Notes under the pieces: model-generated
Seen by the model: only the letters and a program-made list of their open reading frames with translations
The model's database searches: none
What the model was told of the DNA's origin: nothing
Translations under genes and position numbers: made by a program
Part shown: piece after piece, positions 30,509-57,653 of the stretch
Layout of the letters: each line of letters starts with the position of its first letter
Position numbering within the stretch: the first letter of the stretch is position 1
NCBI RefSeq assembly: GCF_032854445.1
Contig: NC_088301.1
Coordinates: 51,819,187-51,883,186, forward strand
From: Liolophura sinensis
Taxonomy: Eukaryota > Mollusca > Polyplacophora > Chitonida > Chitonidae
DNA: 64,000 bases
Direction of reading: 5' to 3'

Positions 30509-30763
30509 CTAGCAGTCTTGGTCGGTTCTTTCCTTTGCTGTTTCTTCTGGTAAGGTAATGGACAGCCTGCGCAAGACAGGAACTTCTTCAGGATGATCAT
30601 CCGGGTCAAGAGAGTAGGTGGGCGGGAGAGTGGATTGGTCGATGGCCTCCTGATAGCTTGGTGGGAGCAAAGCCGGGTAGTCACCAGCAGATACCATGGT
30701 GGACACATCAAGGGGAATCTTTTTCTCTTCCTGGTTTAAGGGTACCACATAGGTCGGGTTGTC
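30509..30763 (-). CDS. Gene A exon: cytoplasmic tail
   Basis: Acceptor ttgtatag precedes GAC at 30763. The frame is phase 0 and ends at TAG (30509-30511). It encodes 84 residues: DNPTYVV at the start, two PPxY motifs (LPPSYQEA and LPPTYSLD), an acidic DPDDHPEE stretch and a basic RRLSITL segment that would suit a basophilic kinase. The junction with the previous exon gives NDGGLDNPTY without a frame change. Confidence 0.8.
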   Translation of the reverse strand, partial: DNPTYVVPLNQEEKKIPLDVSTMVSAGDYPALLPPSYQEAIDQSTLPPTYSLDPDDHPEEVPVLRRLSITLPEETAKERTDQDC

Positions 30764-31221
30764 CTATACAACAAGAGGAAGAGCTAAACTATTACTTATC
30801 CCATTTGATTACGGCTAACGCTTGATTACTTGTTAACATTAAACAATCGCTTCCATGAACAAGTAAAGTGAAAATGTTTAGTAGATCCCAGATTGGACAA
30901 AAAATGGAAGCCTGACTCATTTACAAATGGAGATTTTTTTAACCTTTATGATGAATTTTGGGAATACCAGTTAGGGCATATTCTCACTTTAGATTATTCC
31001 TGGGATACAGAAAATATCACATTGGCTAGTGTGAGAGATTAGGGTAAGCTGAATCTAGGGTAAGCTGAATTTCGGGCTCATTTATTCAGGTTTGATCAGA
31101 ACTGTAAGAGATAACCAAAGAAACCTCATTTCCACTGTCAGACAATCAGCTCTGATTCTTTATTGTCTTTTATTTCTTCTATACTATTTGAGTATAACAG
31201 TACACTTGTCAGATGTACAAG

Positions 31222-31296
<75 letters not shown>

Positions 31297-34200
31297 ACGG
31301 GCGGAAACGGATACAAGTAAATATTATAACTGTGACAAGAAACTTTCTGAATGAAGTGGAACACTCTAATACTGACCAGGCCACCATCGTTAAATCTCAT
31401 TCCTGATATATAGAGGTTCTGCTGGGCTTGTGCCAGAGAGCGTTGGCGTCTGTAAAATGCATAAATTCGCAGGCATATATAAATAAATACCAACAACTAC
31501 AAGCGAAATAACTTCGCCATACCGTCACAGATGGCAAAGAGTTGATACATGACCAGCTGATTTGATTAAGACTTACGTGTTTAAGCTTTTATAAATGACT
31601 TTTTCTTAAGCTTAATATGTCGTCCATTCCCAAGCCTGAACATAGGTGCTTGACACTTTTGAAAACATCCCATTTGGACAAACTGGTTACACCCATATTG
31701 TGCATGTTATATAATGGACAGGTTGTACTTGAATCAAATAACCTTGGTATGTACAACATAGGTGTTATCACTTTTTATCAGGCGGCCAAAGTGGTAAGAC
31801 CCATACAGCCTATATTATGTAATGCTGGACCAAAGACAGTGCATGTACAATATCGATCTTGCCACTTTCTATTAGGCAGCTAATTTTATTGACGATTACA
31901 ATTTTCACAACGCACTGTTTTTCAGACACTGTTATTGGACATTGGTATGTATTGACCAACCTTGCTAGGAGTTTCCTCTTTCGGTAATAGATGGCCATGA
32001 GAAGAATAAGCACAAGGCCAAGGACAAAGATTCCCACTGCTGAGCCTGTAAGCATGGCACCGGTACGGGCTGATAACGCGTTGTCGTTTTTGTGGTTTGA
32101 TGGTGTCGCTGAAAGTAAAAGATATCAGGTTATTTCTGAATTCAGTCGACACAAGATGAAAACTTACAGTAGTCGCACGTATACATAATAAGGATTTGAA
32201 TAATTCGCCAATGAGGAGAAGAAAACGTGTCTCGTATACGAGAAGTATAGCTTCTTCGATTGGATACTATAAAAATATGTGCTGAGACATGAATGCCGAC
32301 CATGCATACAGGAAAAACAACGGTAAAACTAATTTGAAAAACTTATTTAAGAGCCCATGAAAAACAAAAATGTTACGTCGTTTTTAGTTCCAAGAATTCG
32401 AACAAGTATCTAACCACCTTCCCTGTTCGTTCGGGTTATTTCTTTCGGCAAACCATTCTCACAATTTAACCCCGATATCCCGTAGCAAACCCTTAGGTCA
32501 ATGGGCATCCCCGGATGCATAGAAAAGTTGACTTCTTGAATCGTTCGACTAGGCGTACATGATGTATACTTACGCATATACCATCCGGATTCGTCTGGTA
32601 GCCTTGGTTCCTCCATGGCAGGAGCTGTAATAGTTTAAGAGTAACATTTATTGTTACTGTATATTGTATCGGTGATGTTAATTAAATTCCCATTGAACCT
32701 TAATAATACATCTTGTTTCGATGATTACTATACTATGCATGCATGAAAAAATATTTAAAGGAACTTGTTCTCCTGAAATTGGGTGTAGTGCGGTATGCTA
32801 GTGTTTTATTTACTAATACTGTATGCCCTCACCTTCACTAGTCTTCTGTGTGCTCATTTTTTGCCATTTCTCCCATTTCAGATCTGGAACATTTACAACA
32901 AACAACATTTACGCAAACGACATGTGTGTCATAGAACGTGTGGAAATGGCACTTAGTCAACAGCTAGGGCGTCTGGCATTTCCATTTCTAAATGCTTAAA
33001 GCCGTTTTATATTTCATTTTCAGTACATGGCAAAGATAACTTCACCATACTTCAAGTTAAATAACGAATGTTAACCATGACTGATTTCATATTCAACAGA
33101 TGATGAAAGCTTGAATGATGATGAATGCTTTAAGATACTAAAGAAAAAAAATTTATGGTGCTGCATACATATACATTTCCGACCAATAAAATAAGCTATA
33201 TAATGGTACATATATAATATGACATAATGTGATGTAATTGAGGTGAGGTACATTATATATTCTGCCACGTAACATTTTGTCAAAGTACAGTACACAACTA
33301 ACCGTTTTTCTTTCCTGGCCACTTTCCATGTCCGGGCCATTTATCGTGCTCAGGCCATTTCTCATGACCCTTCTTAGGGTGCTCCATTCCATGATGAGGC
33401 TCTGAAATAGAGCGCATAGCATTTCAGATCTGTTTTGAAGAAACTGTGCTACATCTAAAGAGTGTGTGACTGAAAGGAATTTATATATAAACCTTGTCCG
33501 ACAAAAAAGCGAAAACAAATCGTGTACTCTGGGGGGAACATGTTTACAAGCGCAAAACTGTATAAAGGTCTGTATATTTGAGAACCAGCTGGGCGATACA
33601 TCCTAAATGAATCGAGCAGAGGAGACTTTTGCCAACAGTTTGGCGTGTAATGCCACTGATCTTTGAGTTTGTTTCAGTCTGAAGGGAAGGAAGAGTGCAA
33701 TGATCAGGGTCATGCAAGACAAATGTAAACACATCTTAGGCAATCTATGGATTACTCTATGACGGGAGTAGTGCTAGATACACTCCTTCACAACTCTTTG
33801 TACATACAAGAAACACGCGTTCCTCTCAAGCCAATAGAAGCACCAGTAGCCCAGATTAAAAATTATTGACTGAGCGCTAAGCCAGAATCTGTTTATAACA
33901 GTTTTTGTATGTATTACATGCATTCTAGCGCAGGTCTATATTTATACATAGGAACACAAATGCCATTTACTCACTTCAGCGCGGAGATACAAAGCAATGT
34001 GTTTGCATGGAAACAGTTTGTAATGGGCGGTGAATGGAAATATGATAAAAAAAAAATCCAGAGTGTAAATTAATATAAACAGCCAGGGCGTCATTCTTGA
34101 TTAGAGTAACGGATTCCTATCAAGGAAATCCTGCATCCTCAAGGCTGTATAGTTTTGATCGACAAAACCCATATATGCATCTATTTGGAAAAATGTTAAT

Positions 34201-37200: not shown

Positions 37201-37543
37201 ACGCTTCTGGTAATATCTGGCAGATATGGCAAATAAGTACGAGTATACAAGTATTGTATGACTGCCAGATCATTAAATTCCCGCATTTATAATTTGTCTG
37301 TGACAAAAAAGATAAAGATCCAAATACAAGATAGTCAGGCACACCGTAAAAGAGGTCGTTCTGCAGGTAGCCATTTTTGTTACCTGTCTTACAGTCTACC
37401 GCTGAGCCCACTCTAACAAAACGATAACAGGTGAGTTGGATATTACCTCGATCTAACCGTCTAAAAGGTTTATGTTCATCGCTTTACCTTACCATGGTTG
37501 TGGTCGCCGTGTTTCCAGCTTTTCATCATCGTGTCAGGTGTAG
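30509..37543 (-). CDS. Gene A: single-pass membrane protein with PPxY tail (5' end not found)
   Basis: Seven exons join in one frame (726 bases after the first split codon, divisible by 3): 37493-37543, 33303-33401, 32833-32883, 32574-32624, 31961-32108, 31377-31449, 30509-30763. Intron phases run 1,1,1,1,1,2,0. The visible ectodomain is about 90 residues with no cysteine. It is rich in His, Lys, Trp and Pro, with KWP repeats. It is followed by a 20-residue membrane span (GSAVGIFVLGLVLILLMAIY) and a YRKRK stop-transfer. The cytoplasmic tail of about 115 residues has DNPTYVV, LPPSYQEA and LPPTYSLD. PPxY motifs are ligands for WW domains, including Nedd4-type ubiquitin ligases, so the protein may be ubiquitinated or sorted through them (inference). 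The signal peptide and any folded domain must lie further upstream (higher coordinates). I do not recognise the family. Confidence 0.72.
31225..31293. repeat. (AT)n microsatellite
   Basis: About 34 uninterrupted AT dinucleotides inside the last intron of gene A. The ORFs that read as Ile-Tyr strings here are artefacts of the repeat. Confidence 0.97.
31377..31449 (-). CDS. Gene A exon: juxtamembrane linker
   Basis: Acceptor gcattttacag, then 73 bases (1+72; phase 2 in, phase 0 out), then donor CTG|gtcagt. It encodes RRQRSLAQAQQNLYISGM and then RFNDGGL, continuing the basic stop-transfer region of the transmembrane exon. The 2-to-0 phase pattern recurs in the matching exons of genes B and C. 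Confidence 0.75.
31961..32108 (-). CDS. Gene A exon: transmembrane segment
   Basis: Acceptor ttttactttcag, then 148 bases (2+144+2; phase 1 in, phase 2 out), then donor GCAAG|gttggt. It encodes a short polar stalk (TPSNHKNDNALSARTGAM), the hydrophobic span and the YRKRKLLA anchor. The ORF beginning with ATG at 32055 is only the 3' part of this exon. Confidence 0.82.
32574..32624 (-). CDS. Gene A exon: 51-bp ectodomain exon
   Basis: Acceptor aaactattacag and a strong donor ATGC|gtaagtat bound exactly 51 bases, phase 1/1. It encodes PAMEEPRLPDESGWYM with split codons at both ends. Confidence 0.72.
32833..32883 (-). CDS. Gene A exon: 51-bp ectodomain exon
   Basis: Acceptor gtaaatgttccag and donor GAAG|gtgagg bound exactly 51 bases, phase 1/1. 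It encodes LKWEKWQKMSTQKTSE, continuing the KW-rich character of the preceding exon. Confidence 0.7.
33303..33401 (-). CDS. Gene A exon: KWP/His-rich ectodomain exon
   Basis: Acceptor gctctatttcag and donor AACG|gttagt bound 99 bases, phase 1/1. The 32 whole codons are rich in His, Lys, Trp and Pro. The core is HEKWPEHDKWPGHGKWPGKK, a KWP unit repeated every 5-6 residues. The density of His and acidic residues suggests metal or charge-dependent binding (inference only). Confidence 0.75.
34277..34309 (+). repeat. 12-bp tandem repeat
   Basis: The unit gagggtttgatt is repeated 2.7 times without error inside the gene A intron. Confidence 0.85.
35595..35765 (-). repeat. tRNA-Tyr-like SINE
   Basis: The - strand reads TAGTGTACTGGTAGAAGCGT (A box), gactgtaaaccc (anticodon loop with GTA) and gttcaaaac (B box), spaced as in a tRNA-Tyr. 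A non-tRNA body containing ggtgtcttcgaagggtgtca follows on the - strand (lower coordinates). The T-arm stem is degenerate, so this is a SINE head and not a tRNA gene. Confidence 0.5.
37493..37543 (-). CDS. Gene A exon: most 5' exon found, upstream border uncertain
   Basis: Donor CATG|gtaagg is strong. With the acceptor at acccaag (37544) the exon is 51 bases, phase 1/1, the same size as two other exons. It encodes TPDTMMKSWKHGDHNH, and its split codon joins correctly to the next exon (GAG). That acceptor lacks a pyrimidine tract. The frame is open further upstream to about 37667, including a CSCQSGF stretch, and a separate donor gtgagt sits at 37615. The exon may therefore be longer, or a further exon may lie at about 37616-37670. 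Confidence 0.5.
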
Positions 37544-38244
37544 CTTGGGTCCGTTGTTTGAAGCCTGATTGGCACGAACATGTAATCAACAACACGTTCT
37601 TCGAGCTTGGACTCACCTGTAAACACACAGGCCTCGCTATCGATAGTCTCGACAGTGAGGGTCTTTTGGAGCTAAATCAGCGGGAGGGATCAGCAGGCAT
37701 TGCACGAGGTCTTCACATGATTGCGGTAGAACAAGTCTTCTGTGTAGAGGCATACACCAGTTGATATGAATAGATTATTAATATGTGTAAAAAGCCTTTC
37801 TTCGCCTCATAACATGCATGTATATTTCCTAGGTCTGCAATGGCATTAATGCCTTGTACCGATTTATTATTTCGAGAAAGGTTAATGTGCCGTGTTATTT
37901 ATGCACGCGCAATGTTAAACCTAGGTTTTCCGACATGTTCAGATAACCCCTTTTAAGATAGAAGTGCTAAAATATCTAAGGCATAGTTTCATGTGAGGCA
38001 CAGCAGTACAGTCTGTAGCGTTTGAATAATATAAATCAAATTATACTAGTTCTTTTTCTCGATTTCTCTTCTGCTCAACTTGAGTGAAACAACTAGAGCG
38101 CGTCTCGTGTTCTGTCACGTGGCAGTCGGATAAACAGTAAATCATTTAAAATACAACCAGAAAATCGGTTAACCTATCAGCTTGGCTGGAATTCATGACG
38201 TATGTGAGAATATTAATTGACTGTGTGTATGTTACTACCTTAAT

Positions 38245-38290
38245 ACAGAGGACGGCGATAAACATCAATCAAATAAACAAATAATACATG
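38245..38290 (+). repeat. SINE family 1 tail fragment
   Basis: Only the 3' end is left: ggacggcgataaacatcaat followed by caaataaacaaataa, matching the tails of better copies. Confidence 0.45.
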
Positions 38291-39024: not shown

Positions 39025-39087
39025 TGTGACATACCGTGTGTTCGAGTCATTGTCAGACCAGCGTCTTAACCACTTGTCCAGCACTCC
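39025..39087 (-). repeat. tRNA-Ser-like fragment
   Basis: The - strand carries gctggacaagtggttaagac (D-arm-like) and gactcgaacaca (degenerate T-arm). Acceptor stem pairing is absent, so it is more likely SINE or pseudo-tRNA debris than a gene. Confidence 0.3.
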
Positions 39088-40689: not shown

Positions 40690-40866
40690 GAACAATGACA
40701 CAGGAGCCCCTCACCAATGCGGTCCCTCTGAGTTCAAATTCATCTCAAGCTCTGGTCGGATGGTCGTGGATTTCCTGCCACCATGATGCTGGCCGCCGTG
40801 ATATAAGTGAAATATTCTTGAATACGGTGTAAAACACTAGTCAAGTAAATAAATAAATGAATAAAT
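40690..40866 (+). repeat. SINE family 1
   Basis: Has part of the tRNA-related head (gagcccctcaccaatgcggt, gagttcaaattca), the body (gatgctggccgccgtgatat, gtgaaatattcttga) and the tail (gtaaaacactagtcaagtaa). Confidence 0.75.
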
Positions 40867-43083: not shown

Positions 43084-43522
43084 TTAGATATAAGGAGTTA
43101 CTTCCCTTAGTGAATTTTCATTCTGTAGGACATCATAATTGTTTTCTCTGCTATTACCCGAATGGTCGTACAGGTCATTCACGCTGTTCTGTGAAGGATT
43201 AGTAATATTATTATAACCTCCATCGTACTCCACCAACTCTAAGTATGTATGACTACCTTCATTTGTATCATCTCCACCTTCGCGGATATTTGTCGGTAGG
43301 TTATGGTCGTTTGGATTTATCCCTTGGCAAGTTTAACTGATTATATCCCGAGGATCTGTTCGACACCCCTCGAGAAGGCACCGTCTCGTAGAAGTGTGAT
43401 GAATCGTTTTCTTGTCTGAAGGAATCCCCGTCGTAAGCGTTGGGACCATGTCTAGTATCCACAGCGTCATTGGGATAGGGTTGTTGTCGCGTCATTTCAG
43501 GCTGTATCGGGGTATTGTTGCC
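43084..43522 (-). CDS. Gene B exon: cytoplasmic tail with frame break
   Basis: Acceptor catatttctttccaacag, phase 0. First frame, 43522 to 43301: contains HFYETV and GYNQLNLP, then a TAA. Second frame, about 43328 to 43084: contains SHTYLELVEYDGGYNNITNP and NNYDVLQNE, ending TPYI and TAA. Both parts share the same acidic/Asn-rich, tyrosine-motif style, which argues that they are one tail split by a single-base indel near an AAA run. Confidence 0.62.
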
Positions 43523-46500
43523 CTGTTGGAAAGAAATATGAATTATGATGAAAACAAGGGTTTAGAAGATAGAGTACCTAATTCGGTGACGCCTTTACTG
43601 AATTTATGTAGAACATTTTAGTCATATTTTTAGGTAGGCCTTATACACCAGTGATGTTTAATATACTACATTTTTTATTTAATTCTGGTCAAGCCATTGT
43701 GCTAGAGGGTGCGTAAGTATCCACATTTAAGTATTTGACATGAACAGTTTAGAATAAATCCTTAACTGCTGTAAACTGCCTAGATCTTGGAGGTTAAAGG
43801 TGTCCATTTACCAAGTATCAGTGTCCAAGTTTCTCTGACTTTACTCTCCATGCTTTTGCTATTTGTATGTTCAAGTTAACTTGTTTGGGAAATATTTTGA
43901 GCCTTCAAGAACTATATTCGTTTTGCTTGTCACGCCTTCCTCTCCCCCCCCCCACCCCCCCCCTCCCTCCCCTTTTTTATTCTGTTCTGCCTGGTTGATA
44001 TATTTGAAGCAATTCTTATAACCTTGGACGACATTGACTGCAGACTAACATTTGAATTTGTTCTGTCTCCAGCACTTGATGCCCAGCAACACAGGGGACG
44101 TTTATTGTCGACGTGTCTGTAACACAAGCAAGTCAGGAATTTACCATAAGGTTGGTTCGACCTCTGCTAAGCAAACGATTATTCTTATTAACAAAAAGAT
44201 ATGTACTCATAAGCACTTTCAGTTTCAGAAAGGTCATAACTTAAATGTTTGGTCATCGTGCCGAGGTGTTTAGCGTGCCAGCGCGGCGCAATGACTCAGG
44301 GAGCCTCTCTCACAAATGTTGTTGTTGTGAATTCAGTTCGTTCTGGTTTCTTCCCTCTTCCACCAAAATGCGGATGATTTTGTGTTTCTCCTAGGGTTCT
44401 GCCTAGTTTCCTAACACCAAAACTTTGTGAATAGTGAAATATTCATCACCACTGCGTAAAACAACAATCAAATAAATAAATAAATAAATATGCTATGATG
44501 ATTTTTAACATATTACGATTAAAATCGACGATATGCCATAGATCATCTGAAGTGTTATATATCTTTATCATTGCTAGTATTACAGGCACAGTAATCCCAT
44601 ACCTGGGTCTTTTCCTGTAGATTAGGAATATTATTACAATGCCGACAATGGCAATCAAACTGGCACCACCAATGGCTCCACCAAGGATCGCGGACGAATT
44701 GGTATTAAAACTGTCCTGGGGAGAACTCTCTAGTGGGTGGTACCTGAAAGGGCAAGAAATGGTAATTTGGTGTACGCATGAAATTTGTATGTTTATGTAT
44801 GCTTGGGATTTTAGGTCGTACTCAGCAATTTTTCAGTCATTATATCGTGCTTTCTTGTGACGGAGAGAGGATGCCACAAAAATGCTGCCACCACAGAAGT
44901 GTCATGTCGGCACCTCACCCGGTCACATTACACTGACACCAGGCCAACCACTTTTTTCTCCTTGTTCTCGCCTCTTAGGGCTGAGTGCCAAGCGAGGCAG
45001 AAACAAGTAGCATTTTTAAAGCCTCTGGTATGACCCGACCCTGGTTTAATCCCTGCCTCCCGAGAGATATTTAAACGTCAAGTTTAGTGTACAATTTAAC
45101 ATAAATCTCAGGTGCCATGTGAAGGTGCTATAGTAGTGGATAATAAAGTAAAGGCCAAATCATACTACCTTGCACTTCATTATACGAGTCGCGGATCAAA
45201 GATTTGGATTTTTAAAAAAAATTTGAATGAATATACACACTGTAAACATATACAGAACGCGACTGATTAATATTTCATATATGGTATGATCATAAGCTTC
45301 TATGACTCAAATGTCTCATGAAAGGTGTATAGGCTGAGGAAATTGTAACCTACCTTGGTTATCAGTCGTCCTTGTATTATAAGTACTGCCTTGGTAAAGG
45401 AGACGTTGGGCGTTAGGAGGCGGCCTTGTCCGGTGGGTACGAACGTAAGCTGTTAACCCACAAGGCAGAAGATTGCATTCAATTCAGCATTGTATTATCT
45501 TAAAAGACCGTGTGATATGTTTTTTCCTATGGAGTGTGGGAATAGTATTTATATATGTATCTCTCTAGGTATATGCAAGTAAGGTGATCTGGATCGACCT
45601 GACCTACCAGTATCCGGAGTGCTCGCTGACATGGTCGTCCGGCTTCTGAGAGGACTCCTTGTGTGTGGGGAACTTCCTCTATCCTCTGAGACGAATAAAA
45701 CCATTAATTCAGTTAAAGAGATAATCATATTCTAAGAACTATATACACTATAGACAAATACAGCAGTACAAATAGCGAAACAAAAAACGCCAAATTTGAA
45801 AAGGCTTGTTTGATGCATTAAAATGATTGTTGTTAACTTTACTGACATTATTCATCGCCCGAAGGAGTCAGTTAACTTTATCAAGCCTTATATAGCTTAA
45901 AAATGTCCGCACGTTATCATTGGGCTAAACTTAATTCAACCATATGAGCCTCTGCGCATGTAATTATAGACAACGATGCGTATATGAAAATACTAATATA
46001 CAAACGCATGGATATCCATTATTGGGTAGTTTACAATACAAAAGTGTTTTCCTTCGTAAATATAATTGAGAAGAAATGTTCTTGCCGTTCTTATTAATAT
46101 ATAAATCCACATTCTACTGTTCTACTGACTCAACCCGTTTATTCCATTAATTGTTCTGAATCGGGATTTGTCTCCTACACAGGTTATGTATATTCTGGTT
46201 AGATGTCTTGTGTCATGAATATACAGGGAAAAATTCACATTTATCGCCAAGATAAAGCTTGCAAAGTAAAGACAAATAACTTGTTTTATAGTCCTAAGCT
46301 ACCGAAAGAGAGATATGAAGAAAATCTGAGGAACTTTTCTAACTTTGATTTGTAAAGTGCATCAATTTTTAACTATATGTGTAATTCTGTAGCTTATACG
46401 CATATAACATTTTTCGAAAATGTTTTTTTTCTGTCTTATAAACGTATAACTAGATTTGTACACTTGTTAGTTCTTCGCCATAAACATATCGTCATTATAA

Positions 46501-48412
46501 ACTAACACCCCACCATTATTTAAATAGTTATAAAACAGCTGCATCTTAACTGAAGACTGAAGTCAGCACTTAATGACAGCACGAATTGTCAGTGTTATTA
46601 TTTTTATATATGAACAGTATATACTCACTGACTGTATCTAAGGTATGTAGAAGAATACCATTAACTAATGACTCGGGCTTTGGAGTCGGTCTTGGCGGGC
46701 CACCTCCGTCTGAAATAAAGTTCGTAATGTCCTTTAAAATCACTGGTTTCAAGATTAGTTCCGTTAATTAACATTTCTTAATCTTCAAAATATAGCACTA
46801 TAGGTTAAGTAACATTTGCCCGTTGGCTTCAGAAGTAATTAGCAAACAAACCGCATTATATATATCAACATTTAATGAAGTTTAATACTCATGTAGCTGA
46901 AGAAAGCAGCAGAAGATATTACCTCAGAGCCCTTTCTGTTTTGGTCGCACATGAATATATGTATATAGAGACAGTACATTCGTCTGCCATCATGTTTATA
47001 TTGCCCTGGTCCTTGTAATTATTCATGACTATAGCTTATTTACTTACATAGTCAGTGCGATAAATTATCTTACCAAAAGAATGTTATCCTTTCAATGCGA
47101 ATACGTATAATCAAATGATTATTATTAAAAAGACTCGTTTATTCACCGCTGCTTTATCAATAGAATTGCAATTACCTAAACCTGTTAATTATGATATTAT
47201 ATAAACTTAAGTGGAATATACGCCATTTTCGTCGCCTACAGGTTTAGATTAACGCTGGCATATCTTATATCATCAACGTGCACTGGGAACAGATAGGTTG
47301 ATTGATTCATTCATTCATTGGTGTCAAGGACAGAGTCAAAAATTTCTGACTTACATAACGGCGACCGTGCTGCTTTATAGATGGAGGAAACCGCCGATCT
47401 TTGTCTTGAAATAAAGACGCAGACGAAACATACAGAACTGGATTCGAGCACACGGTCACTTTTGTCACAACTTGCATGCATGGTCGCACGCAGCCATTAA
47501 TTATCTGAACCAGGGAAACACCCCATAAATACAGAGTAATTCAAAATTCATGATAGTGATCGTTTAAAATCTGGTATTGAAAAGAAAAATAATTGATTTT
47601 TATTGATGGTAATAATGAAAGAAATAGGAGAGTGCAATTATTATAACTTTTAAATTCATTGCTTGTGTCATGTTGAGCTTTATATAGGAAGTCTTATGCT
47701 TTGCTAAATTTTATGCATGTATACCAAATTTTAGATTCTCATAGGTTGGTTTTCGTGTGCACTATAATATCATCACACAAATATTTTGTCCATTGCCGCT
47801 AAAAATACAACAGCGATAAATTAATTAGTACTCGGCTTACAGCAGTGCGGCCCCGTATTTCACCAAGGTGTATAAGCCATTAAAGATCAACCATGCGGAT
47901 CGACTCGCCCGCCTGTTCGTGATAGGCTTATATATGAAATTCACTTATAATGTTGTTTAGAGATACATGTATATTCCTAAGTACCAGAAGGGCTTAGGAA
48001 TGTATTGCGAGCGTTCACCTTGCCAAACCCTGCGGATGAGTCCAGTGACTTTTGAACTCGGGCCTCCTGAGGTTCCCGAATTTTTTCTGAAATTCCCACT
48101 ATAGGTACTCCTAATATATAAGTACTGAATAGCTGCTCCCGCTATATTACACACAATCAACCTGGGGATGGTCGTGGATTTCCCTCGTCTCTGCCCGGTT
48201 CCTTCCAACCACAATGCTGGCCGTCTTCGTACAAGTGAAATGTTCTTGATTCCAGCGTAAAACACCAATCAGCAAAATCAATGGATAAATAACTACATGT
48301 GGTCCTTTGGTATAGGGAAATTGTACTTACTTGAAGTTTGATTTGGAAGCAATGAACTGGGACGGCGCTGTATCGGGAGAACATTCCTGTCGCCCATGAT
48401 GAAATTTGAGAA
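43084..48412 (-). CDS. Gene B: single-pass receptor-like protein with ITAM-type tail
   Basis: Seven exons join cleanly: 48331-48397 (possibly from 48412), 46629-46709, 45608-45685, 45354-45449, 44603-44729, 44023-44116 and a tail from 43522. The ectodomain part is about 105 residues, low-complexity and rich in Pro, Arg, Ser and Thr, likely an extended O-glycosylated stalk. The membrane span is ASLIAIVGIVIIFLIY with a YRKRP anchor. Tail motifs are YETV and YNQL in the first frame and YLEL, YNNI and YDVL in the next. The first frame stops at 43301-43303, but a +1 shift keeps a coding-like frame open to TAA at 43084-43086. The shift must lie between about 43303 and 43331. It carries a one-base excess relative to an intact frame (sequence error, pseudogene or allele). 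YxxL/I pairs recruit SH2 proteins such as Syk-type kinases in known immune receptors. The ligand and family are unknown. Confidence 0.68.
43945..43976 (-). other. G-rich intronic tract, possible G-quadruplex
   Basis: The - strand has consecutive G-runs (GGGG, GGG, nine G, ten G with single-base breaks), about 50-80 bases downstream of the donor of the gene B linker exon. Such tracts can affect splice choice. Their length is error-prone in assemblies. Confidence 0.45.
44023..44116 (-). CDS. Gene B exon: juxtamembrane linker
   Basis: Acceptor acttgcttgtgttacag, then 94 bases (1+93; phase 2 in, phase 0 out), then donor CCAAG|gttata. It encodes HVDNKRPLCCWASS followed by an Asn/Ser-rich stretch ending SMSSK. 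The CC pair next to the membrane is a possible palmitoylation site (inference). Phases match the linker exons of genes A and C. Confidence 0.7.
44256..44497 (+). repeat. SINE family 1, near full length, diverged
   Basis: Head gtgccgaggtgtttagcgtg and ccagcgcggcgcaatgactc, a weakened B box region (gtgaattcagttcg), central cctagggttctgcctagttt, a body with gtgaaatattcatcacc and tail cgtaaaacaacaatcaaa plus (TAAA)n. It lies in the intron between the transmembrane and linker exons of gene B. Confidence 0.75.
44603..44729 (-). CDS. Gene B exon: transmembrane segment
   Basis: Donor CCCAG|gtatgg at phase 2. Two acceptors are in tandem: tttcag at 44744 (better pyrimidine tract) and cactag at 44730. 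Only the second keeps phase 1 open (127 bases, 2+123+2); the first would meet a TAG at once after the split codon. It encodes SSPQDSFNTNSSAILGG, the hydrophobic span and YRKRP. Confidence 0.72.
44840..45065 (-). repeat. SINE family 2
   Basis: Shares with 2550-2790 the words ggatgccacaaaaatgctgc, cacccggtcacattacactg, gctgagtgccaagcgaggca and catttttaaagcctctggta, plus a T-arm-like end (ggtttaatccctgcctcc). It is inserted in a gene B intron. Confidence 0.6.
45354..45449 (-). CDS. Gene B exon: stalk
   Basis: Acceptor gttaacag and donor CCAAG|gtaggt bound 96 bases, phase 1/1. It encodes YVRTHRTRPPPNAQRLLY and then QGSTYNTRTTDNQ, a Thr/Arg/Pro-rich stalk. Confidence 0.68.
45608..45685 (-). CDS. 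Gene B exon: stalk
   Basis: Acceptor ttttattcgtctcag and donor TACTG|gtaggt bound 78 bases, phase 1/1. It encodes DRGSSPHTRSPLRSRTTMSA followed by STPDT, Ser/Arg-rich and probably disordered. Confidence 0.7.
46629..46709 (-). CDS. Gene B exon: stalk
   Basis: Acceptor cgaactttatttcag and donor GTCA|gtgagt bound 81 bases, phase 1/1. It encodes GGGPPRPTPKPES and then LVNGILLHTLDTV. Confidence 0.7.
47297..47495 (-). repeat. SINE family 1, old copy
   Basis: On the - strand it keeps the T-arm-like gctcgaatcc, a cggtttcctccatctataaa block and a cgccgttatgtaagtcagaa block, with a (GAAT)n-type tail. Strongly diverged. Confidence 0.5.
48165..48297 (+). repeat. SINE family 1, 3' half
   Basis: ggggatggtcgtggatttcc, ctctgcccggttccttccaa, atgctggccgtcttcgtaca, agtgaaatgttcttga and tail gtaaaacaccaatcagc. 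It lies just downstream of the most 5' gene B exon found. Confidence 0.75.
48331..48412 (-). CDS. Gene B exon: most 5' exon found
   Basis: A strong donor TTCAA|gtaagt ends the exon in phase 1. An in-frame ATG at 48395-48397 would give MGDRNVLPIQRRPSS with no signal peptide. The frame also continues to a weak acceptor (aacttag) at 48413. A start here would imply an N-out protein without a signal sequence, so a continuing exon with more ectodomain upstream is equally possible. Confidence 0.5.
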
Positions 48413-48929: not shown

Positions 48930-48960
<31 letters not shown>

Positions 48961-49919
48961 ATTACCCAAAGGCTTACTTGCCTTTTGATTAGTCACACAG
49001 GAAATCCATTTAGAGCCTAATTTCGCAATATAGGTGGCATAATTGTATCTATATCCAGGGTGTTTTTCACACGCATGTTAATTTGTTACTCTTAATTAGG
49101 AGAAAACTTACCTTTACAAACAAATTGCTGGTTGTTGTTTAATGTATATTTATATGTGATCCTTGCTTTCGACATAGTGACGTCATCCTCGCGTTAGCGA
49201 GACGATTGCATTCGCTTCAGTCGTCTTGTTACCTGCGAGTTTTCTACAAATACTTTGGAATAGGTAAATATGGCCAGAAATGGGCAAGTAGATTTTACTT
49301 AAAAACATATCATTTGAACTATAAACCGCGTTAAAATATCAAATGTTAACACATTCTTTTAATATTAATCGGTCTGTCCTTCTATGCGTCTATCTCTGAA
49401 ACCTTCTTGCCCTTTGCCGTCGCTCGGATTTATTTGTGATTTTATGTCAGAATCTATAGTTTGTCATCTAACTGGGAAGACAACCATTAAACATGCTTCT
49501 GGTTTGCTGGATAATGGGCGTAGTTCAGTACGCTTTGACGAATTGGGACACCTGTTTTCTAGTAATTATTTATCCCTTTAACCCTAAAACCTGTTTCTGG
49601 CACGCCACGTTTGAATTATTTTCAAGTTTGGGTATAGCATATCTTTACTAATCGAAGTTTATATGATTTCGTGTAGCTATGTGGTCAAGACGTTATATGT
49701 AGCTTCAGAATTCGATGTTAGGAAATTCTACTATTAAAAAATCAAGTGTTATCTTTTCGCAGAGACATTAGTTTAGGGTTTCGTTTTAATTGCTTCGGCT
49801 GCTGATATACTAAATGCAAGCATTGTGAGTGAAAGGAAACAAATTCTAATGCTTGGCAAGATACTCTATTTTCGGCATACCAATTAAAAATCTACTAGTA
49901 CACACTTTTCACATCATCG
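48413..49919. other. Stretch with no clear exon
   Basis: May hold the promoter or 5' exons of gene B, but nothing could be fixed. It includes a compound (AT)n(AC)n microsatellite at 48931-48960. Confidence 0.35.
48931..48960 (+). repeat. (AT)n(AC)n compound microsatellite
   Basis: About eight AT units run directly into about eight AC units. Confidence 0.9.
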
Positions 49920-50295
49920 TATGGTACACATTGTTCATGCATCCTGTTATACATACTGTTCGCACAATCGCATAGTTCACACCTCCCACTCCATCCTACT
50001 GTACACACTGTTCACACCATCGTATGGTACACATTGTTCATACCATCCTATGGCTCACACCGTACTGTTGTTCACACTGTTAACGCCATCTTATGCTATG
50101 CATGCACTGTTCACACCATCCCGCGATACACACTTTTCATACTGTCCTATTGCGCTCATTTTTGCCATCATTCCATGGTACACATTGTTTCATACCATCA
50201 TAAGATGCACACTGTTCACACCATTCTACAGTGAATATTTTTCACACCATAAAATGGTACACACTTTTCACACCATACTATGGTACACACTGATA
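49920..50295 (-). repeat. 26-bp minisatellite, inverted array (about 14 units)
   Basis: The + strand repeats catcctatggtacacac and tgttcacac, the exact reverse complement of the unit at 51970-53805. Units are degenerate and some are shortened. The Thr/His/Tyr-rich open frames here come from the repeat and are not a gene. Confidence 0.9.
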
Positions 50296-51119
50296 GCTAA
50301 ATTGATACCTTATCCAATACCCTATAAAATCAGACCATTGCCTTCATAGAGTACTGTGTATGAGTATTTCAGATAACGTAAGGTGTTGCTGACATTTAAG
50401 CAAGCATAATGCAGTCGTTGTTAGGGAATATATTAATAGGCCCATAGATTTAATTTCAATTATACATTTTAATTTCCAGCAATAAAATAACTATATCTGG
50501 AGTGAAAATGTTGGCCCGAGTGAGACAGCCTATATCGAAAGCTCGACTCTTACTCGAACAAGTATTTTTTATGATCTTCAGAGGGACCTAGTTGTTTCAG
50601 TGTGCGAAAAAAATATACATTAACGGAATAGTATAAATATGTTTGTAATGTATTTTGTAATTAGAATAGGGTATGAACAGGCTGGCATAATAGAAAAGAG
50701 AAAAATAAGATTTGTGTTTTACTAAAAAAAAAACAATTCTAAAGTGAAAGTTTGAGTCTGGGACTGCTTCTTGGCCCCGAAGAATAAAGCCAGCACATAA
50801 GAACTATCTGTTCATCAATGTGGCATTCTATGTAGTGGGAACAGCCCATGGTCTAGCGGTAAAAGTTGCTTATTTTTTGATATATCTAGGGACCATTGGG
50901 GTGCAGGTTCTAAAACGGCGTTAGATATGGAATTAGTGTATCCTTTGTAGATTCTTCCGCCTTCATTGCTTGTGGGGCCTTGATGACACTAAGGGGTCAA
51001 CGACATTCGTTGAATTCCACTGATATGGAGTGCATACACGTAATGTATATGTGTGTCATATGTGGAAAGATCGCCAGTAACTTACCAAAGGCAGATGTTT
51101 TCTTCCTACGATTTAATCA
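50296..51119. other. Spacer with tRNA-like fragment
   Basis: No exon is supported. 50842-50912 reads catggtctagcggtaaaagt and gcaggttctaaaac with tRNA-like A/B box spacing, and looks like a decayed SINE head. Confidence 0.35.
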
Positions 51120-51770
51120 AGAATTACCGATATACACGTATACCGAAACCGACAAATATTCATCCATATTGCCATTTCATTTATCGATACCAATAAATAA
51201 ACCTATCGATATCCATACATGAATTAGTGACATCGATAATTGACAGAAATTTAATGATATCACTAATTAATTTAATGATATTGATATGAATGAATTAGTG
51301 ATATCGATAAATGATTTAACAATGATTTAACGATATCGATAAATGGTGCTTCCTGTTTGGCTTCAATGGAAATAACCGCTGCATCTACATTACTTGAGTA
51401 AAACTGAGCATAAGCTAAATGCATTGACAATGGCCAAGGTAACCTGATCAGTCATCGAGGAGCAAGGAAGCAGAATCAGGACAGTCTCGATCAGTTACTT
51501 CATGCAGCAGGACATTGCAGGGCTTAAGGACAAACAGCGTTGTATGAGGATACAAGTACTAACATAATACCAATACTTTTTTTTTCAACTTTCGTTTGTC
51601 TTCCTCTGTTCCAGTATTGATCAATATCAATAAACAGTGGTATTTAGGGATATCGTTAATTCATACTTAGATATCGAAAAATAAGACTTTTCATCGATAT
51701 TGATAATTGATTTAGATAAATGAATTATCAATATCGATAACTGAACCACCGATATCGACAATTAAATACT
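51120..51770. repeat. Two clusters of TATCGATA-like words around a GC-richer core
   Basis: ATATCGATAAAT-type words recur in 51180-51350 and again in 51640-51770. In the second cluster, atcgatattgataat at 51695-51709 faces its reverse complement at 51725-51739, a 15-bp hairpin stem. Between the clusters (51353-51570) the sequence is less AT-rich and has a 39-codon frame (EEQGSRIRTVSISYF) without start or splice signals. Confidence 0.6.
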
Positions 51771-51959
51771 TAAATGTTAGTTTAGCCCATCATGTCTTTC
51801 ACCCATAAAAATAACCACCATGGTATAAGAGAAAAAAATTTGAGTATGGTGTTATCTGCTACAGAAATTCCATAAATAAACAGTCCGATAAAGTATCTCC
51901 TCGTAGATAATACACCTAAATAGTAGGGCACATTTAAGTTATCATACAACATCATAGAA

Positions 51960-53805
51960 TCATAGATCACACATGAACATGTGTGGACAGTGTACCATAG
52001 GGTGGTGTCAACAGTGCTTAGGCCTACCACAGGATGGTGGGAACACTGTGTACCATAGGGTGGTGTAAACAGTGTACTATAATATGGTGTGAACAGTGTG
52101 TACCACAGGATGATGTGAACACTGTATACCACAGAATGGAGTGAACATGTAATGTATACCATAGGATTGAGCGAACATGCAGTGCTTACCACAGAATGGT
52201 GTGATCAGTGTGTACCATAGGATGATGTGAACAGTGTATACCATAGGATTGTGTGAACAGTGTGTACCATGGGATAATTTGAACAGTGCATACCACAGGA
52301 TGGTGTAAACATTGTGTACTATAGGATAAGTTGAACAGTGTGTACCATACGATAGTGTGAACAGTGTGTACCACAGGATAGTGTGATCATTGTGTACCTC
52401 AGGAATGGTGTGAACAATGCATGCCATAGGGTGGTGTGAAGAGTGTGTACCATAGGATGGAGTGAACAGTGTATACCACAGAGTGGTGTGAACAGTGTGT
52501 ACTACAAAATGGTGTGAACAGTGTGTATCATAGTATAGTGCTATTAGTGTGTACCATAGGATGGTGTGAACAGTACATGCCATAGAATGTTGTGAACAGT
52601 GTGTACTATAGGATGGGTGTGAACAGTGTGTAGGCCTACCAATAGATGATGTGAACAGTGTGTACCATAGGATGGTCTAAACAGGGTGTACCATAGGATG
52701 GCGTGAACAGCGTGAACCACAGAATGGTGTGAACAGTGTGTACCACAGAATGGTGTGAACAGTGTGTACCACAGAATGGTGTGAACAGCGTATGCCACAG
52801 GATTGTGTGAACAGTGTTTACCACAGGATTGTGTGATCAGTGTGTACCATAGGATGGTGTGAACGGTGCATACCACAGGATGATGCAACAGCGTATACCG
52901 TTCGATAGTGTGATCAGTGTGTACCATAAGATGGTGTGAACAGTGTGTACCACAGAATGGTGTGAACAGTTTATACCACAGGACTGTGACATCGGTGTAT
53001 ACCACAGAATGGTGTGTACCATAGGATTGTGCGGAACAGTGTGTACCATAGGATGGTGTGAACTGTACCACAGGATGTTGTGAACAGTTTATATCACAGA
53101 ACGGTGTGATTAGTGTGCACCATATGATGGTCTGAACATGCAGTGTGTAGCATAGGATGGTGTGAAAAGTACGTACCTCAGATGGTGTAAACAATGTGTA
53201 TCATGGGATTGTGTGAACAGTGTGTACCTCAGAATGACGTTGAACAATGTGTATCATGGGATTGTGGTGAACAATGTGTACCACAGGATGTGTGAACAAT
53301 GTGTACCATAGGACTGTGTGAACATTGTGTACATACGACGTGTGAACAGTGCGTACCTCAGAATGGTGTGAACAGTGACTACCATGGGGTCATTTGAACA
53401 GTGTATACAGTATATATGATGGCTTGAACAGTGTGTACCATGGAATGGTGTGAACAGTATGTACCACAGGATAGTGTGATCAGTGTGTACTTCAGAATGG
53501 TGTGAACAATGTGTATCATGGGATCGTATGAACAGTGCGTACAACAGGATGGTTTGAACAGTGCGTGCCATATTATAGCCTGAACAGGGTGTACCGCAGG
53601 ATGGTGTGATTAGTGTGTATCATAGAATAGAGTGATCAGTGTGTACCATAGGAAAGTGTGATCAGTGTGTACCATAAGATGATGTGAATAGTGTGTATCA
53701 TAGAATGGTGTGATCATTGTGTATCATAGGATGGTGTGAACAGTGTGTACCATATGATGGTTAGAACAGTGCGTACCATAGTATGCCTGAACAGTGTGCT
53801 ACATA
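51960..53805 (+). repeat. 26-bp minisatellite, main array (about 70 units)
   Basis: Unit gtgtgaacagtgtgtacc followed by ataggatg or acagaatg, repeated head to tail for about 1.85 kb with point variants (gatcag for gaacag, cctcag for ccatag). Because the unit rarely makes a stop codon, long - strand frames (up to 216 codons) appear in all phases. Confidence 0.95.
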
Positions 53806-54039
53806 AAATATGTCCCTCATCAAGGGGCATCTATGCAGACTTCGTATTGATTACATATTTTGGGAAAAAATATGTAGATATATTTTTACCCATTAACTTG
53901 AAAAGCGTACGGTAACTGTAAATCGCGCATTCCGTCAACATTCAAAAAGATACGCAAAGAGTACATGTAATACTATTGCCCGGCCAGAACGCGATAGAGC
54001 AAATGTATTTATGTAGTATATTATTTTGCTGAGGCTTTC

Positions 54040-54157
54040 AGTCTGGTACATAACCAGGGCCGTTGATTTTCCTTCATTTGTCCAGGTTTCATCTTCCACA
54101 AAACCCGACCCCCCGTCACATATTAGTGAAATATTTTACACCATACAACAGATAAAT
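54040..54157 (+). repeat. SINE family 1, old fragment
   Basis: tccaggtttcatcttccaca, the Pro-rich ccccccgtcacatattagtg and gtgaaatattttacac follow the order of the family 1 body. Confidence 0.45.
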
Positions 54158-54559
54158 ATGTGTATATCTGTAGTGACAATAAAATGCAGTTGGACCCCTC
54201 CTCGTGACATTTTTTTTAGTTCTGTGTTTCTCATTTTGATCAGATGTGATTCAATTCAGATTGCTTTCAAATGATAAAATACGTCTTCAGTGTAAATAAA
54301 TATTGATAAACTAAAAAACATCACAAGATGCAGTATATCACAAGCACATATCAATGCAAAATAATATTCATTGTCAATTGTATGCAGTCAATATTCATTA
54401 TCACACATACTGACGTCTCTTTAATACATGTATAGCCGTCTTCAAGAATCATACACACCCAAACACGCCCGCAGCGTGATTATCTCATTTGGACGACCCT
54501 ATACAACGATCGCAATATCGCATTATGATGGTATCTTTTTGTGGTAGTTAATTTTCACC

Positions 54560-54690
54560 ACATTTATCGGTTTCCAATTTCTGCTGCCTCGTGTCTTTCG
54601 AAGAACAAACTAGTTTGCTGCTAGATCAACATCACTTTTGTTTTCAACATCTTCGGTGTCAACGTTAAAATGCCGTGAAGCAGGTGCCAT
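54560..54690 (-). pseudogene. Decayed copy of the gene C tail end
   Basis: The + strand cggtttccaatttctgctgc...gaagaacaaactagtttgct aligns with 55924-56000 (tggtttccagtttctattga...cagaacaaaatagtttggtg). In the gene C frame it reads DVDLAAN, then a TAG where the tyrosine should be, then FVLRK. This corresponds to DVGPAPNYFVLQK in gene C. The motif tyrosine is replaced by a stop, so it is not functional as a tail. Confidence 0.6.
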
Positions 54691-54764
54691 TCTATACTGG
54701 CTTCCACATGATAAAATATATCACACATGGTCGTACTTGGACAGGTTTACCAACAATCTGCGGA

Positions 54765-54895
54765 GTGTCGTGATCTCCCGGGATCTAGCTACGCAATTTC
54801 CTCTCACTACAATGCTCTCCGCCGGTTTATTGAAATATTCTTCAGGTATATGGCGTAAGACACCAGTCAAATAAATAAATAAATATAACACATAT
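54765..54895 (+). repeat. SINE family 1, 3' half
   Basis: gatctcccgggatctagcta, acaatgctctccgccggttt, tgaaatattcttcaggtata, tggcgtaagacaccagtcaa and a (ATAA)n tail. Confidence 0.65.
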
Positions 54896-55200
54896 GTAAC
54901 GTAAAATAAGTGCTATGCATTTTAAAAAATCCATATCAATAACCTTGCAGAGAATGGGAAATCCCCTTGAACAAATACAGCCTCTTACAGAATTATCCCC
55001 CTTGAATGGCCACGATTGAACGTTTATTTACAGTGGTATTAAATGAGGCTACTGTTTCGTAAGAGGATTTCTTTATTCTTATTACAGACCACAGGATAAT
55101 TCATACTTAATTAATGCTAAGCACGTGGATTATATCGACATATGAAATGTTAAGTACTTAGTGCACAGCAATCTTATCCAGATGGGAAATGGATGCCTAC

Positions 55201-55241
55201 CGGGATTAATATGGCTGCCACAGTTTTTCATACAACCGTTT
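55201..55241 (-). CDS. Candidate 41-bp microexon (Cys-containing)
   Basis: A good acceptor (tttttgtttcttgtgcag) and a donor CCCG|gtaggc bound 41 bases. The only open frame reads NGCMKNCGSHINP, phase 2 in, 1 out. It could be a missing ectodomain exon of gene B or a relic, but no neighbour in matching phase was found. Confidence 0.2.
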
Positions 55242-55429
55242 CTGCACAAGAAACAAAAATCAAAACGAATGTTTAGCAACTGAATTTTAAAAAATGCATA
55301 GTAGGACAGTCTTATCAAATAGCACCCTGGTGTACTGTAGTAGTATTAGATTGCTCACCATGCCATATTACAAAGTATGTATTTCGAGCTGCTATGGCAA
55401 AATAACCACTAGATTGGTTGCCTTAATGG

Positions 55430-55560
55430 AGCATTGACACGAACGTTTTGTTTTGTGGAACAAAATGTGAATGTTAAATTGCCTGAAACAGAGGTCATTC
55501 TATATCAAGGTACACATTTGTCAAAATAAATATGCTCAAATTAATAGCCGTAAGCGGGCA
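55430..55560 (-). pseudogene. Decayed repeat of a gene C-type tail module (copy 1)
   Basis: The - strand cacattttgttccacaaaac aligns with catttcgttccggaaaacga at 55650-55675. Both resemble the ..TATTTTGT.CTGGAAAA.GA.. module of gene C. Upstream words (ctctgtttca) and downstream words also match between the two copies over about 110 bases. No open frame is left. Confidence 0.4.
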
Positions 55561-55639
55561 TAACATACCTACAATAAGCATAAAATAAATGTTATACAAC
55601 TGTTTATGTTTAAACAAAATAACTTTTTGTTATTCTGAT

Positions 55640-55760
55640 ATCGTCGCCCAGGTTTCGTTTTCCGGAACGAAATGTTGATATTAATAGGTGTGAAACAGAT
55701 GATATTTTATCCATGTTTCACATTGAACAATATATAAATGTGCTATTGTAGGCATGACTT
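55640..55760 (-). pseudogene. Decayed repeat of a gene C-type tail module (copy 2)
   Basis: On the - strand one frame reads HFVPENETWATI, alignable with YFVLENETRETV in gene C, with Tyr to His and Leu to Pro changes. The flank matches copy 1 about 215 bases away, so these are tandem relics. Confidence 0.45.
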
Positions 55761-55936
55761 GACATATAAACACATTTTGCAGTACCCGCGCTAATGCAAA
55801 GTAACTCATCCCTTGAGTTTAACATTCCATATCATACATCTTGCTATCTCGTACATTTCCAATCACCAACATTCACATCTATCCTTATAAGTCTTATGGA
55901 ATTATTTTATAGCCCTTAATTACTGGTTTCCAGTTT

Positions 55937-56424
55937 CTATTGAGGCATATCCTTCTGCAGAACAAAATAGTTTGGTGCAGGGCCCACATCACCTTCATTT
56001 CCAACAGTTTCACGCGTTTCATTTTCTAAAACAAAGTACTCGGGTGATTTGATGGTAGGTTGTTCACTAGAGTCTGGATTTTGAACTTCCAGAACAAAAT
56101 AATCAGGAGCTTTATTGCCAGATGGAACATCACCTCCAATGCTTTCGCTTTCCAGAACAAAATATGGTGCCGATATCTCATCAACAGAACCCTTTTCATT
56201 GATGTTGGTTGCTCCTTCCAAGACAAAATACTCGGGGCCGGTTTGAGTGTTGAGCTACATCCATCACCTTTGCCTTCAATGGAATCGTTGTGTAACATGT
56301 CGTAGGCTTTCTGATCTGTGTTGGACATATCAAGCCTGCTGTATTCGTTGTCTGCAACCTGTGCCTTGGCTCCACTGTCATCACTGATTTCTGCGTATTC
56401 TCTGTTAGTTAAGGCCTCATTTAC
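55937..56424 (-). CDS. Gene C exon: cytoplasmic tail with frame break
   Basis: Acceptor ttttcccggtttag, then GTA AAT GAG. The first frame runs through NREYAEISDD, NEYSRLDM and KAYDMLHND to about 56240. The second frame carries five YFVL(E/Q) modules to TAG at 55937-55939. Each module has the form (A/S)P-x-YFVLE in an acidic context. The break falls in CCCC (- strand) inside the first module. One extra C there would give the same APEYFVLE form as its neighbours. Confidence 0.7.
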
Positions 56425-57653
56425 CTAAACCGGGAAAATACAGTGTGTGTTTTGTAAGTGCCTTTCTTATGCGAGTATTAGAGACCATATAACAGACTAT
56501 GGATTTAATCAGGAATTAACATGATCTAACTCTTCCTAATTCATAAGTGGCAGAAGACAATAGCTATGCAACATTCACATCAGCTAAAAGAGGTTGTGTT
56601 CAACACATGACGCATACTTTTTCTTTCAAAGAAAAATGCATTCAAGCTGTGCTTTGTATTCGATTTACTATGTATATGATGTCTCTTCGTGTCTGCCATA
56701 GATGTATTCCCTGACATTTTATGCCAAGCCACCTTAATTTGCATTCCAAATAAATGTTCACTTTCAGTTGTGGCTGTCGGCAAAAATTCGTGTTCAATAA
56801 GTAATGTTTATGATAAACAAGTGACAAAAAAGTGTATTATTTTGTGGCTAAGCAGGCGCATCCATTTTTTCATTATGACTCTAACACTCGACATCATGCA
56901 AGCCTTACTTTATAAATGTGCATTTACGGTTAATGTATCAAGAGATTCTGCTTAGTTTTATTAATGCATTAAAAATTCCCACCATCAAAAATAACGCTAA
57001 AATGGTAAGATGATCGCTGAAATGGCATTCGTCTAGCGCCAGAGTACGACGTATGCTCCTTAAGCACAAATTATTTTAAAAAGTGCTCTATTAAGAGAGT
57101 TGACAACACCAAATTTGGAAGAACTTTAACCATACATTACATTTTTGTAACATTCTTGCCATCGCTAGCAAAATTATATAACTATTATACACAAATGTAC
57201 ATGCATGGACGGTACGGCAGTCAATTTCAAATATGCAGCCACCATAAAATTTGTCTTCCTCTGATAGTATGGTCCCATTCGAACAAAATATTCGTGGCTA
57301 GACTTGGGTGAAGTTTTAAAAATGTGTCACGTTATTAAACGCACACTGATCTGTTTCAAATATACATGTATAACCCCAAGTAATTCATACAAATTGAGAT
57401 AAAGCAATTACTTCCATGGGTTAATTATATGTATTACATTAGTTTTTAAACTGTGACAGTCTGCTGCTCATGTTGAGTAGGCTATAGAATAGAGAGTTAT
57501 GGCATAAGATTTTATGCATCAGTCCTCTTGATAAGATATACATGACAGAAAAGAACATGAGTGTCCCTTACAATGTTATAGCCAGCTGCACCCTGATCAT
57601 TAGAGCTGCTTGTTTCCACGTTCTTCATGTTGTTAGTTTTATCAGACGCCTCC
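55937..57653 (-). CDS. Gene C: C-terminal part of a receptor-like protein with YFVL ladder
   Basis: Two exons are visible: 57572-57653 (linker, phase 2 to 0) and 55937-56424 (tail, phase 0). This is the same plan as genes A and B, so a transmembrane exon is expected upstream. None is seen up to the gap at 57858, and it may be inside it. The tail has YAEI, YSRL and YDML, then YFVLE modules (PEYFVLE, APYFVLE, PDYFVLE, PEYFVLE, PNYFVLQ) about 22-25 residues apart, ending DMPQ and TAG. The first module is in a different frame from the upstream part. The two exons together are one base short of a continuous frame, and a four-G run (56234-56237 on +) is the likely spot. YxxL/I motifs are SH2-docking candidates. 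The family is unknown to me. Confidence 0.66.
57572..57653 (-). CDS. Gene C exon: juxtamembrane linker
   Basis: Acceptor tttttcattactttcag, then 82 bases (1+81), then donor AACATT|gtaagg. It encodes EASDKTNNMKNVETSSSNDQ, then GAAGYNI, joining in frame to VNEALTNREY. The entry phase of 2 implies a preceding exon ending in two codon bases, as in the transmembrane exons of A and B. Confidence 0.7.

Follow-up and report, generated by a model that had tools for sequence, protein, structure and literature searches.

The locus analysed is a window of 64,000 nucleotides of Liolophura sinensis (C7:51819187-51883186), and genome-wide searches covered 609,464,459 bases in 632 contigs. According to the excerpted assembly report, assembly GCA_032854445.1 was built from 14x HiFi reads, with a heterozygosity of 1.22-1.26%, and the accompanying RNA-seq covers digestive gland, foot, gill, gonad and heart (PMC11068029); its species name was subsequently corrected to Liolophura sinensis (PMC12441733). 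The minus strand of the window contains the 3' portions of three genes, A, B and C. A galactosyltransferase-type gene is located to their right on the plus strand (PF13733, E 1.1e-25 and 8.2e-19), and beyond it lies gene D, likewise on the plus strand, at approximately 72-76 kb in window coordinates and approximately 8 kb outside the window. The exons and candidate exons of A, B and C, in window positions, are:

30509-30763, minus strand: A, tail exon, entered in phase 0, with NPTY, LPPSY and LPPTY; stop TAG; acceptor score 12.0
31377-31449, minus strand: A, linker exon of 73 bases, phase 2 to 0; acceptor 10.0, donor 6 of 8
31961-32108, minus strand: A, transmembrane (TM) exon, phase 1 to 2; hydropathy 2.71, RKRK stop-transfer, acceptor 13.3
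32574-32624, minus strand: A, candidate stalk exon, phase 1/1 (splice scan only; other phases open too)
32833-32883, minus strand: A, candidate stalk exon, phase 1/1, with LKWEKW (splice scan); two KW per 16 residues
33303-33401, minus strand: A, candidate stalk exon, phase 1/1, EKWPEHDKWPGHGKWPGKKN; three KW
37493-37564, minus strand: A, possible further exon, phase 1/1 (splice scan only; weak)
43084-43332, minus strand: B, distal part of the tail in another frame, shifted by 1, with the ITAM-like YLELVEYDGGYNNI and YDVL
43301-43522, minus strand: B, proximal part of the tail exon in the linker-joined frame, with YETV and YNQL, ending in DKSKRP and a stop; 73 aa
44023-44116, minus strand: B, linker exon of 94 bases, phase 2 to 0; acceptor 12.0, donor 5 of 8
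44603-44743, minus strand: B, TM exon, phase 2 out; hydropathy 2.83
45354-45449, minus strand: B, candidate stalk exon (splice scan only); acceptor fits phases 0/0 and 1/1
45608-45685, minus strand: B, candidate stalk exon (splice scan only); acceptor fits phases 0/0 and 1/1
46629-46709, minus strand: B, candidate stalk exon (splice scan only)
55937-56254, minus strand: C, distal part of the tail in another frame, shifted by 2, with five YFVL approximately 22 residues apart
56026-56424, minus strand: C, tail exon in the linker-joined frame, with YAEI, YSRL and YDML near its start and a stop at the low end; 132 aa
57572-57653, minus strand: C, linker exon of 82 bases, phase 2 to 0; acceptor 14.9, donor 5 of 8
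57858-58057, no strand: assembly gap of 200 N, 204 bases upstream of the C linker

The surroundings contain several further elements. The 3' end of a plus-strand gene occupies positions 1-596; its 197-aa end has no Pfam match, and the frame preceding it may resemble the C-terminus of a NUAK-type kinase. A tyrosine-recombinase-like fragment is found at 25513-26016 on the plus strand (Phage_integrase PF00589, E 1.2e-4, under the cut-off; DUF3504, E 0.021), which we take to be possibly a Crypton-type element. A 26-base minisatellite with approximately 68 copies extends over 51990-53798, and the unit of a diverged block 1.7 kb away (49892-50292) is the reverse complement of the minisatellite unit. 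Another minisatellite, with a 33-base unit and approximately 20 copies, lies beside the assembly gap at 58072-58714. The Rfam search of 30-64 kb produced no match at gathering scores.

The original prediction described A, B and C as three receptor-like genes with a common C-terminal exon plan, and their 3' ends were well read; A, B and C are probably membrane-protein genes. The predicted linker lengths and exon limits hold, and phase 0 is the sole open phase for all three tail exons, the first stop coming after 84, 73 and 132 residues in A, B and C, respectively. For the linkers, the proposed phase of 2 to 0 is the sole open one in A and C, while the linker of B is open in both 2 to 0 and 1 to 2. 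Splicing of each linker to its tail exon is predicted. Both A and B have outstanding TM exons that leave in phase 2, as predicted, but entry in phase 1 is doubtful for B, where the highest-scoring acceptor (15.3, at 44743) implies phase 2 and the one implying phase 1, at 44729, scores 9.5. Scores of at least 9 occur in 13% of all AGs. Both A and B have one TM segment that is followed by a basic stop-transfer and a cytoplasmic tail, as expected of type I receptor-like proteins; the reading as receptor-like single-pass genes with a common C-terminal plan is supported for A and B and likely for C.

The prominence of the TM exons was assessed by scanning 563,832 strand-bases (the window and the fetched loci, excluding loci L032-L041) for donors that match the consensus at 6 or more of 8 positions and follow a segment with a hydropathy of at least 2.3. 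Sixteen donors passed, leaving in phases 2, 0 and 1 in seven, five and four cases, respectively. When at least three K/R were also demanded in the final nine residues, three donors were left, those of A, B and D, all of which leave in phase 2. The scan is not exhaustive, because the donor of gene E (see below) scores below 6 and was therefore missed. A laxer scan for phase-2 donors in the flanking 50 kb (30 kb right, 20 kb left) gave 18 hits, none of which was counted as a receptor TM exon; several lie in simple repeats, and the strongest of the others (hydropathy 2.96, on the left) is not followed by a basic stop-transfer. Hydrophobic stretches are present on the minus strand at 66-82 kb in window coordinates.

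Upstream of the TM exons the gene structures become uncertain, and this applies to the phase in which the TM exon of B is entered and to every stalk exon of A and B. The run of phase-1/1 exons that had been proposed for A and B does not stand out, since acceptors giving such candidates (six in A, at 32.1-38.0 kb, and four in B, at 44.7-49.8 kb) are no commoner than those giving phase-0/0 candidates (nine and four, respectively). In B, the 96-base candidate 45449-45354 contains a stop in phase 2 and thus cannot join the best TM acceptor. Some support for the stalk exons of A comes from a KW pattern, which runs on from the candidate exon 33401-33303 into the candidate exon 32883-32833; among 3240 blocks taken from the frames of the window, 3 hold two KW per 16 residues, the block of A being one of them. 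An exon model based on codons was abandoned, since its training frames were mostly repeats.

The tail of A is open to its end and, in agreement with the PPxY predicted for it, carries two such motifs, LPPSY and LPPTY, a number reached or exceeded in 0.145% of shuffles. The only genome match to the DNA of this tail exon is the exon itself. PPxY motifs recruit WW-domain ligases of the NEDD4 type, and NPTY recruits PTB proteins. Judging from its motifs, A would use its PPxY pair to recruit such ligases and its NPTY to recruit PTB proteins.

For B, the ITAM-like pattern described in the original prediction exists, but it is located past a stop and in a frame shifted by 1 relative to the linker-joined part. 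The tail encoded in the assembly thus lacks the YxxL/I x6-8 YxxL/I arrangement of an ITAM-bearing receptor. When the two parts of the tail are joined, five YxxL/I/V motifs are counted, compared to 1.28 in shuffles (P 0.0028), and the ITAM spacing is seen in 0.96% of shuffles.

The YFVL ladder attributed to C is likewise real, since none of 20,000 shuffles reaches five YFVL, yet its frame is shifted by 2 relative to the linker-joined part, which has no recognised motif beyond YDML. The codons of the ladder repeats differ synonymously. In the search up to 74 kb in window coordinates, no convincing TM exon with a phase-2 donor scoring at least 6 was found for C. The only nearer hit, at 58551 (hydropathy 1.86), lies inside a minisatellite, and two candidate segments at 61.3 and 61.9 kb were rejected by eye because of their charge order and short length. 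In A and B, the introns between the TM exon and the linker span approximately 0.5 kb, and the assembly gap is therefore a natural place for the TM exon of C, which was probably lost in the gap at 57858-58057 or lies beyond it. C may also not be a membrane protein.

The ITAM-like part of B and the ladder of C are both outside the linker-joined frame, and so neither is encoded as assembled, although the distal parts of both tails look coding. The two tail frames overlap at 43304-43332 in B and at 56029-56254 in C. The frame change in each tail would reflect an error in the 14x consensus, an allele, or genuine truncation or decay. The shifts differ (1 and 2, corresponding to opposite directions if each is due to a single base), which speaks for independent small changes; for the same reason, regulated frameshifting is not favoured. 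YxxL-type motifs bind SH2 or endocytic proteins, and provided that the animal itself has uninterrupted frames, the tyrosine motifs of B and C would be predicted to recruit SH2 or endocytic/AP2-type partners. It is also conceivable, albeit doubtful, that B and C are decaying, with tails genuinely truncated by the frameshifts and A alone intact, which would be compatible with the other readings considered below. The frame changes are found in both B and C, whereas A and D have tails that stay open throughout, in line with decay. On the other hand, 14x coverage and a heterozygosity of approximately 1.2% make consensus errors or one bad allele plausible, and the distal parts still resemble constrained protein, as indicated by the synonymous codon differences in the ladder.

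A profile search of the ectodomains was run with Pfam on stop-to-stop frames of the minus strand of at least 38 aa and covered 175 of 180 frames, the other five (tail/TM) being scanned to nearly equal limits. Frames starting at 51.9-53.9 kb, in the minisatellite, or holding N fall outside this set, as do short exons, the gap and far 5' exons. In the 175 frames no useful domain was detected: eleven families reached an E of at most 0.1, in one frame each, the best values being 0.0085, for a family of unknown function, and 0.011. Thus, no shared ectodomain was found in minus-strand frames of this length, and the ectodomains of A and B, as far as they are visible, are apparently stalk-like and domain-poor. 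Copies of A, B, C or D elsewhere in the genome did not rise above noise in a search loose enough that a miss is not proof. The tail of A and the distal parts of B and C retrieved nothing from the PDB by sequence (best E 0.9). Among the matches listed, the open-licence titles and abstract beginnings contained nothing recognised on this cluster, and YFVL was absent from the matches listed for the open-licence literature, to the extent of these partial texts.

Gene D repeats the C-terminal plan on the opposite strand, with a TM exon of phase 1 to 2 (187 bases), a linker of phase 2 to 0 (130 bases) and a phase-0 tail. The latter encodes 234 uninterrupted residues with HPYFILP and GPKYFILEN, and two YF[VI]L motifs were reached in none of 20,000 shuffles. 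Upstream, D contains two CBM14-like exons in phase 1/1. The first module scores 22.5 bits against CBM14 (PF01607), compared to a cut-off of 22.1; the second is missed by Pfam but resembles the first (E 2e-9, for that single comparison). Its motifs suggest that D could provide the same kind of output with chitin-binding modules on the outside. A CBM14 identity of A, B and C, considered after D had been found, gave no match in minus-strand frames of at least 38 aa. In the genome search for CBM14, 150 of the 244 candidates were scored, and D is absent among the matches listed. These include a dense CBM14 cluster on both strands of C7:52.37-52.49 Mb, 0.5 Mb from the window; in three sampled pieces of it the genes look secreted, and no stop-transfer-like TM exon was seen. 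In five further CBM14 pieces, two donors accounted for three weak TM-like hits, which were not receptor-like. Another CBM14 match, at C10:9367916-9368071, falls within an open frame given as 11,299 residues.

A genome-wide DNA pattern for [DE]YF[VIM][LF]E matches 91 places, compared to 85 for a reversed control, and at this level the motif alone means nothing. Sixteen of the pattern places, representing 27 of the 91 matches, were examined, and one was tail-like. This is gene E, at C7:57.79 Mb, 5.9 Mb from the window, with a near-identical second copy at 57.83 Mb, approximately 41 kb apart. Gene E has a TM exon of phase 1 to 2 and a tail-like phase-0 frame of 303 residues with PDYFVLE, YEEL and YEVP, while a P/S/T-rich frame of 313 aa is located upstream of the TM exon. 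Two short candidate linkers, whose phase was looked for by eye, fit 2 to 0 and could connect the two exons. As E was chosen through its motif, the motif of E is not independent evidence, unlike that of D. Because YF[VI]L is common to C, D and E, the tail of C is not unique.

Whether the common plan reflects duplication was examined by comparing the tails of A to E in 21 shuffle-tested pairs of parts. The tails had been described as mutually unrelated, which agrees with the eight pairs among A, B and C (p 0.13 to 0.92). The distal part of C compared with E gave 0 of 300 shuffles, and compared with D a p of 0.017. The tail of D also resembles that of E (p 0.007), and the distal part of B resembles E to a lesser degree (p 0.03). 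Five TM pairs were at 0 of 300 and one at 0.017, a likeness that is that of ordered hydrophobic segments in general. The copy-to-copy sequence similarity expected of recent duplicates was seen neither between the tails of A, B and C nor in the genome searches with each of them. The claim that A, B and C are tandem duplicates with swapped tails is therefore neither demonstrated nor excluded by these comparisons, given that the three tails are not alike.

Seven TM loci retrieved with the Pfam families Syndecan and EphA2_TM served as controls (L032, L033 and L037-L041); only L032 and L033 passed the Pfam cut-off, L034 and L035 were excluded as overlapping L032, and L036 for having no TM segment on the matched strand. 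A phase-1 acceptor is present at five of the seven matched frames, and a donor scoring at least 6 at three (phases 0, 1 and 0). None of the seven has a phase-2 donor of that score; E would fail by the same rule. The plan, present in D and E and not seen at seven controls, which is a small sample, is thus not confined to A, B and C, nor is it universal. At L032 (C3:4379042-4379550), the Syndecan-like membrane segment is matched six times in tandem over approximately 0.5 kb.

The reading that best accounts for these data, to which we assign a probability of approximately 0.6, is that A and B are two separate genes for type I single-pass proteins and C is the 3' end of a third, that they encode receptors or adaptors with short tail motifs, and that their C-terminal scaffold is old or recurrent. 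It is founded on directly observed open phases, motifs and frame changes, and on the exon plan of D. Each of the three genes would end in a short linker exon, spliced to a phase-0 tail exon, and their products would act at the cell surface as receptors or adaptors, with an output determined by short motifs in unstructured tails. The plan of a TM exon leaving in phase 2, a linker of phase 2 to 0 and a phase-0 tail is also that of D and, with a candidate linker, of E, and is taken to be an old or recurrent scaffold of this genome rather than a sign of a recent tandem triplication. Common descent of the C-terminal scaffold is possible but unproven.

A doubtful alternative is an old tandem duplication of a single receptor that gave rise to A, B, C and, as an inverted member, D, with the scaffold kept while the tails diverged or were exchanged. 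It draws on a plan that recurs within approximately 45 kb in A, B and D and in part in C but was not seen at the seven control TM loci, on YF[VI]L in both C and D, and on the two of six linker pairs that stand out (B-C, p 0.007; A-D, p 0.003). There is also a precedent, as the CEACAM pairs, in the excerpted text of the respective study, had their cytoplasmic exons replaced after duplication (PMC2832619). Against descent from one receptor stand the tails of A, B and C, which have no significant similarity, the TM likeness, which is ordinary for hydrophobic segments, the presence of the plan in E, 5.9 Mb away, and the failure to find a shared ectodomain. A more elaborate and rather improbable version is a receptor locus comprising A, B, C and D, the last inverted, whose scaffold has been kept by descent while the tail exon was repeatedly replaced (PPxY, ITAM-like, YFVL ladder), and of which one member reads ligands resembling chitin. 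It is very improbable that a single long minus-strand gene has A, B and C as alternative 3' ends: the three share strand and linker-to-tail phases, their 5' ends were not found and C has no visible TM exon, but A and B have their own TM exons, each unit has its own stop, and approximately 13 kb separate the tail exons.

The preferred reading, of separate single-pass genes on an old or recurrent scaffold, can be compared to several known systems. PPxY-tailed membrane proteins that recruit NEDD4 exist as a family, and A resembles them in its single TM segment and two close PPxY, but differs in having no known ectodomain; binding by A is predicted. D is alike in its TM exon of phase 1 to 2, its linker of phase 2 to 0 and its phase-0 tail, has YF[VI]L in common with C, and is distinguished by its CBM14-like modules, opposite strand and uninterrupted tail, while E is alike in its TM exon of phase 1 to 2, its phase-0 tail, its candidate linkers and one PDYFVLE, and differs in its P/S/T-rich upstream frame and in its 303-aa tail with YEEL and YEVP. 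CEACAM-type paired receptors, as far as the excerpted sources describe them, are similarly clustered single-pass genes with short cytoplasmic exons carrying tyrosine motifs and with varying tails, but their ligand-binding domains are closely similar and include recognisable Ig domains, none of which were found in the frames searched for A, B and C (PMC2832619, PMC2110893).

If the locus does combine a scaffold kept by descent with repeatedly replaced tail exons, it would be a molluscan counterpart of tail-swapping paired receptors. A scaffold shared by descent would in itself represent a small case of invertebrate receptor genes changing their output while the exon plan is kept. Otherwise, the locus contains membrane-protein genes of an ordinary kind and serves as a reminder of caution, in that two of the three tail motifs originally highlighted fall outside the reading frame in the assembly. 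The YF[VI]L motif, with five occurrences in C, two in D and one in E, constitutes a concrete candidate docking motif.
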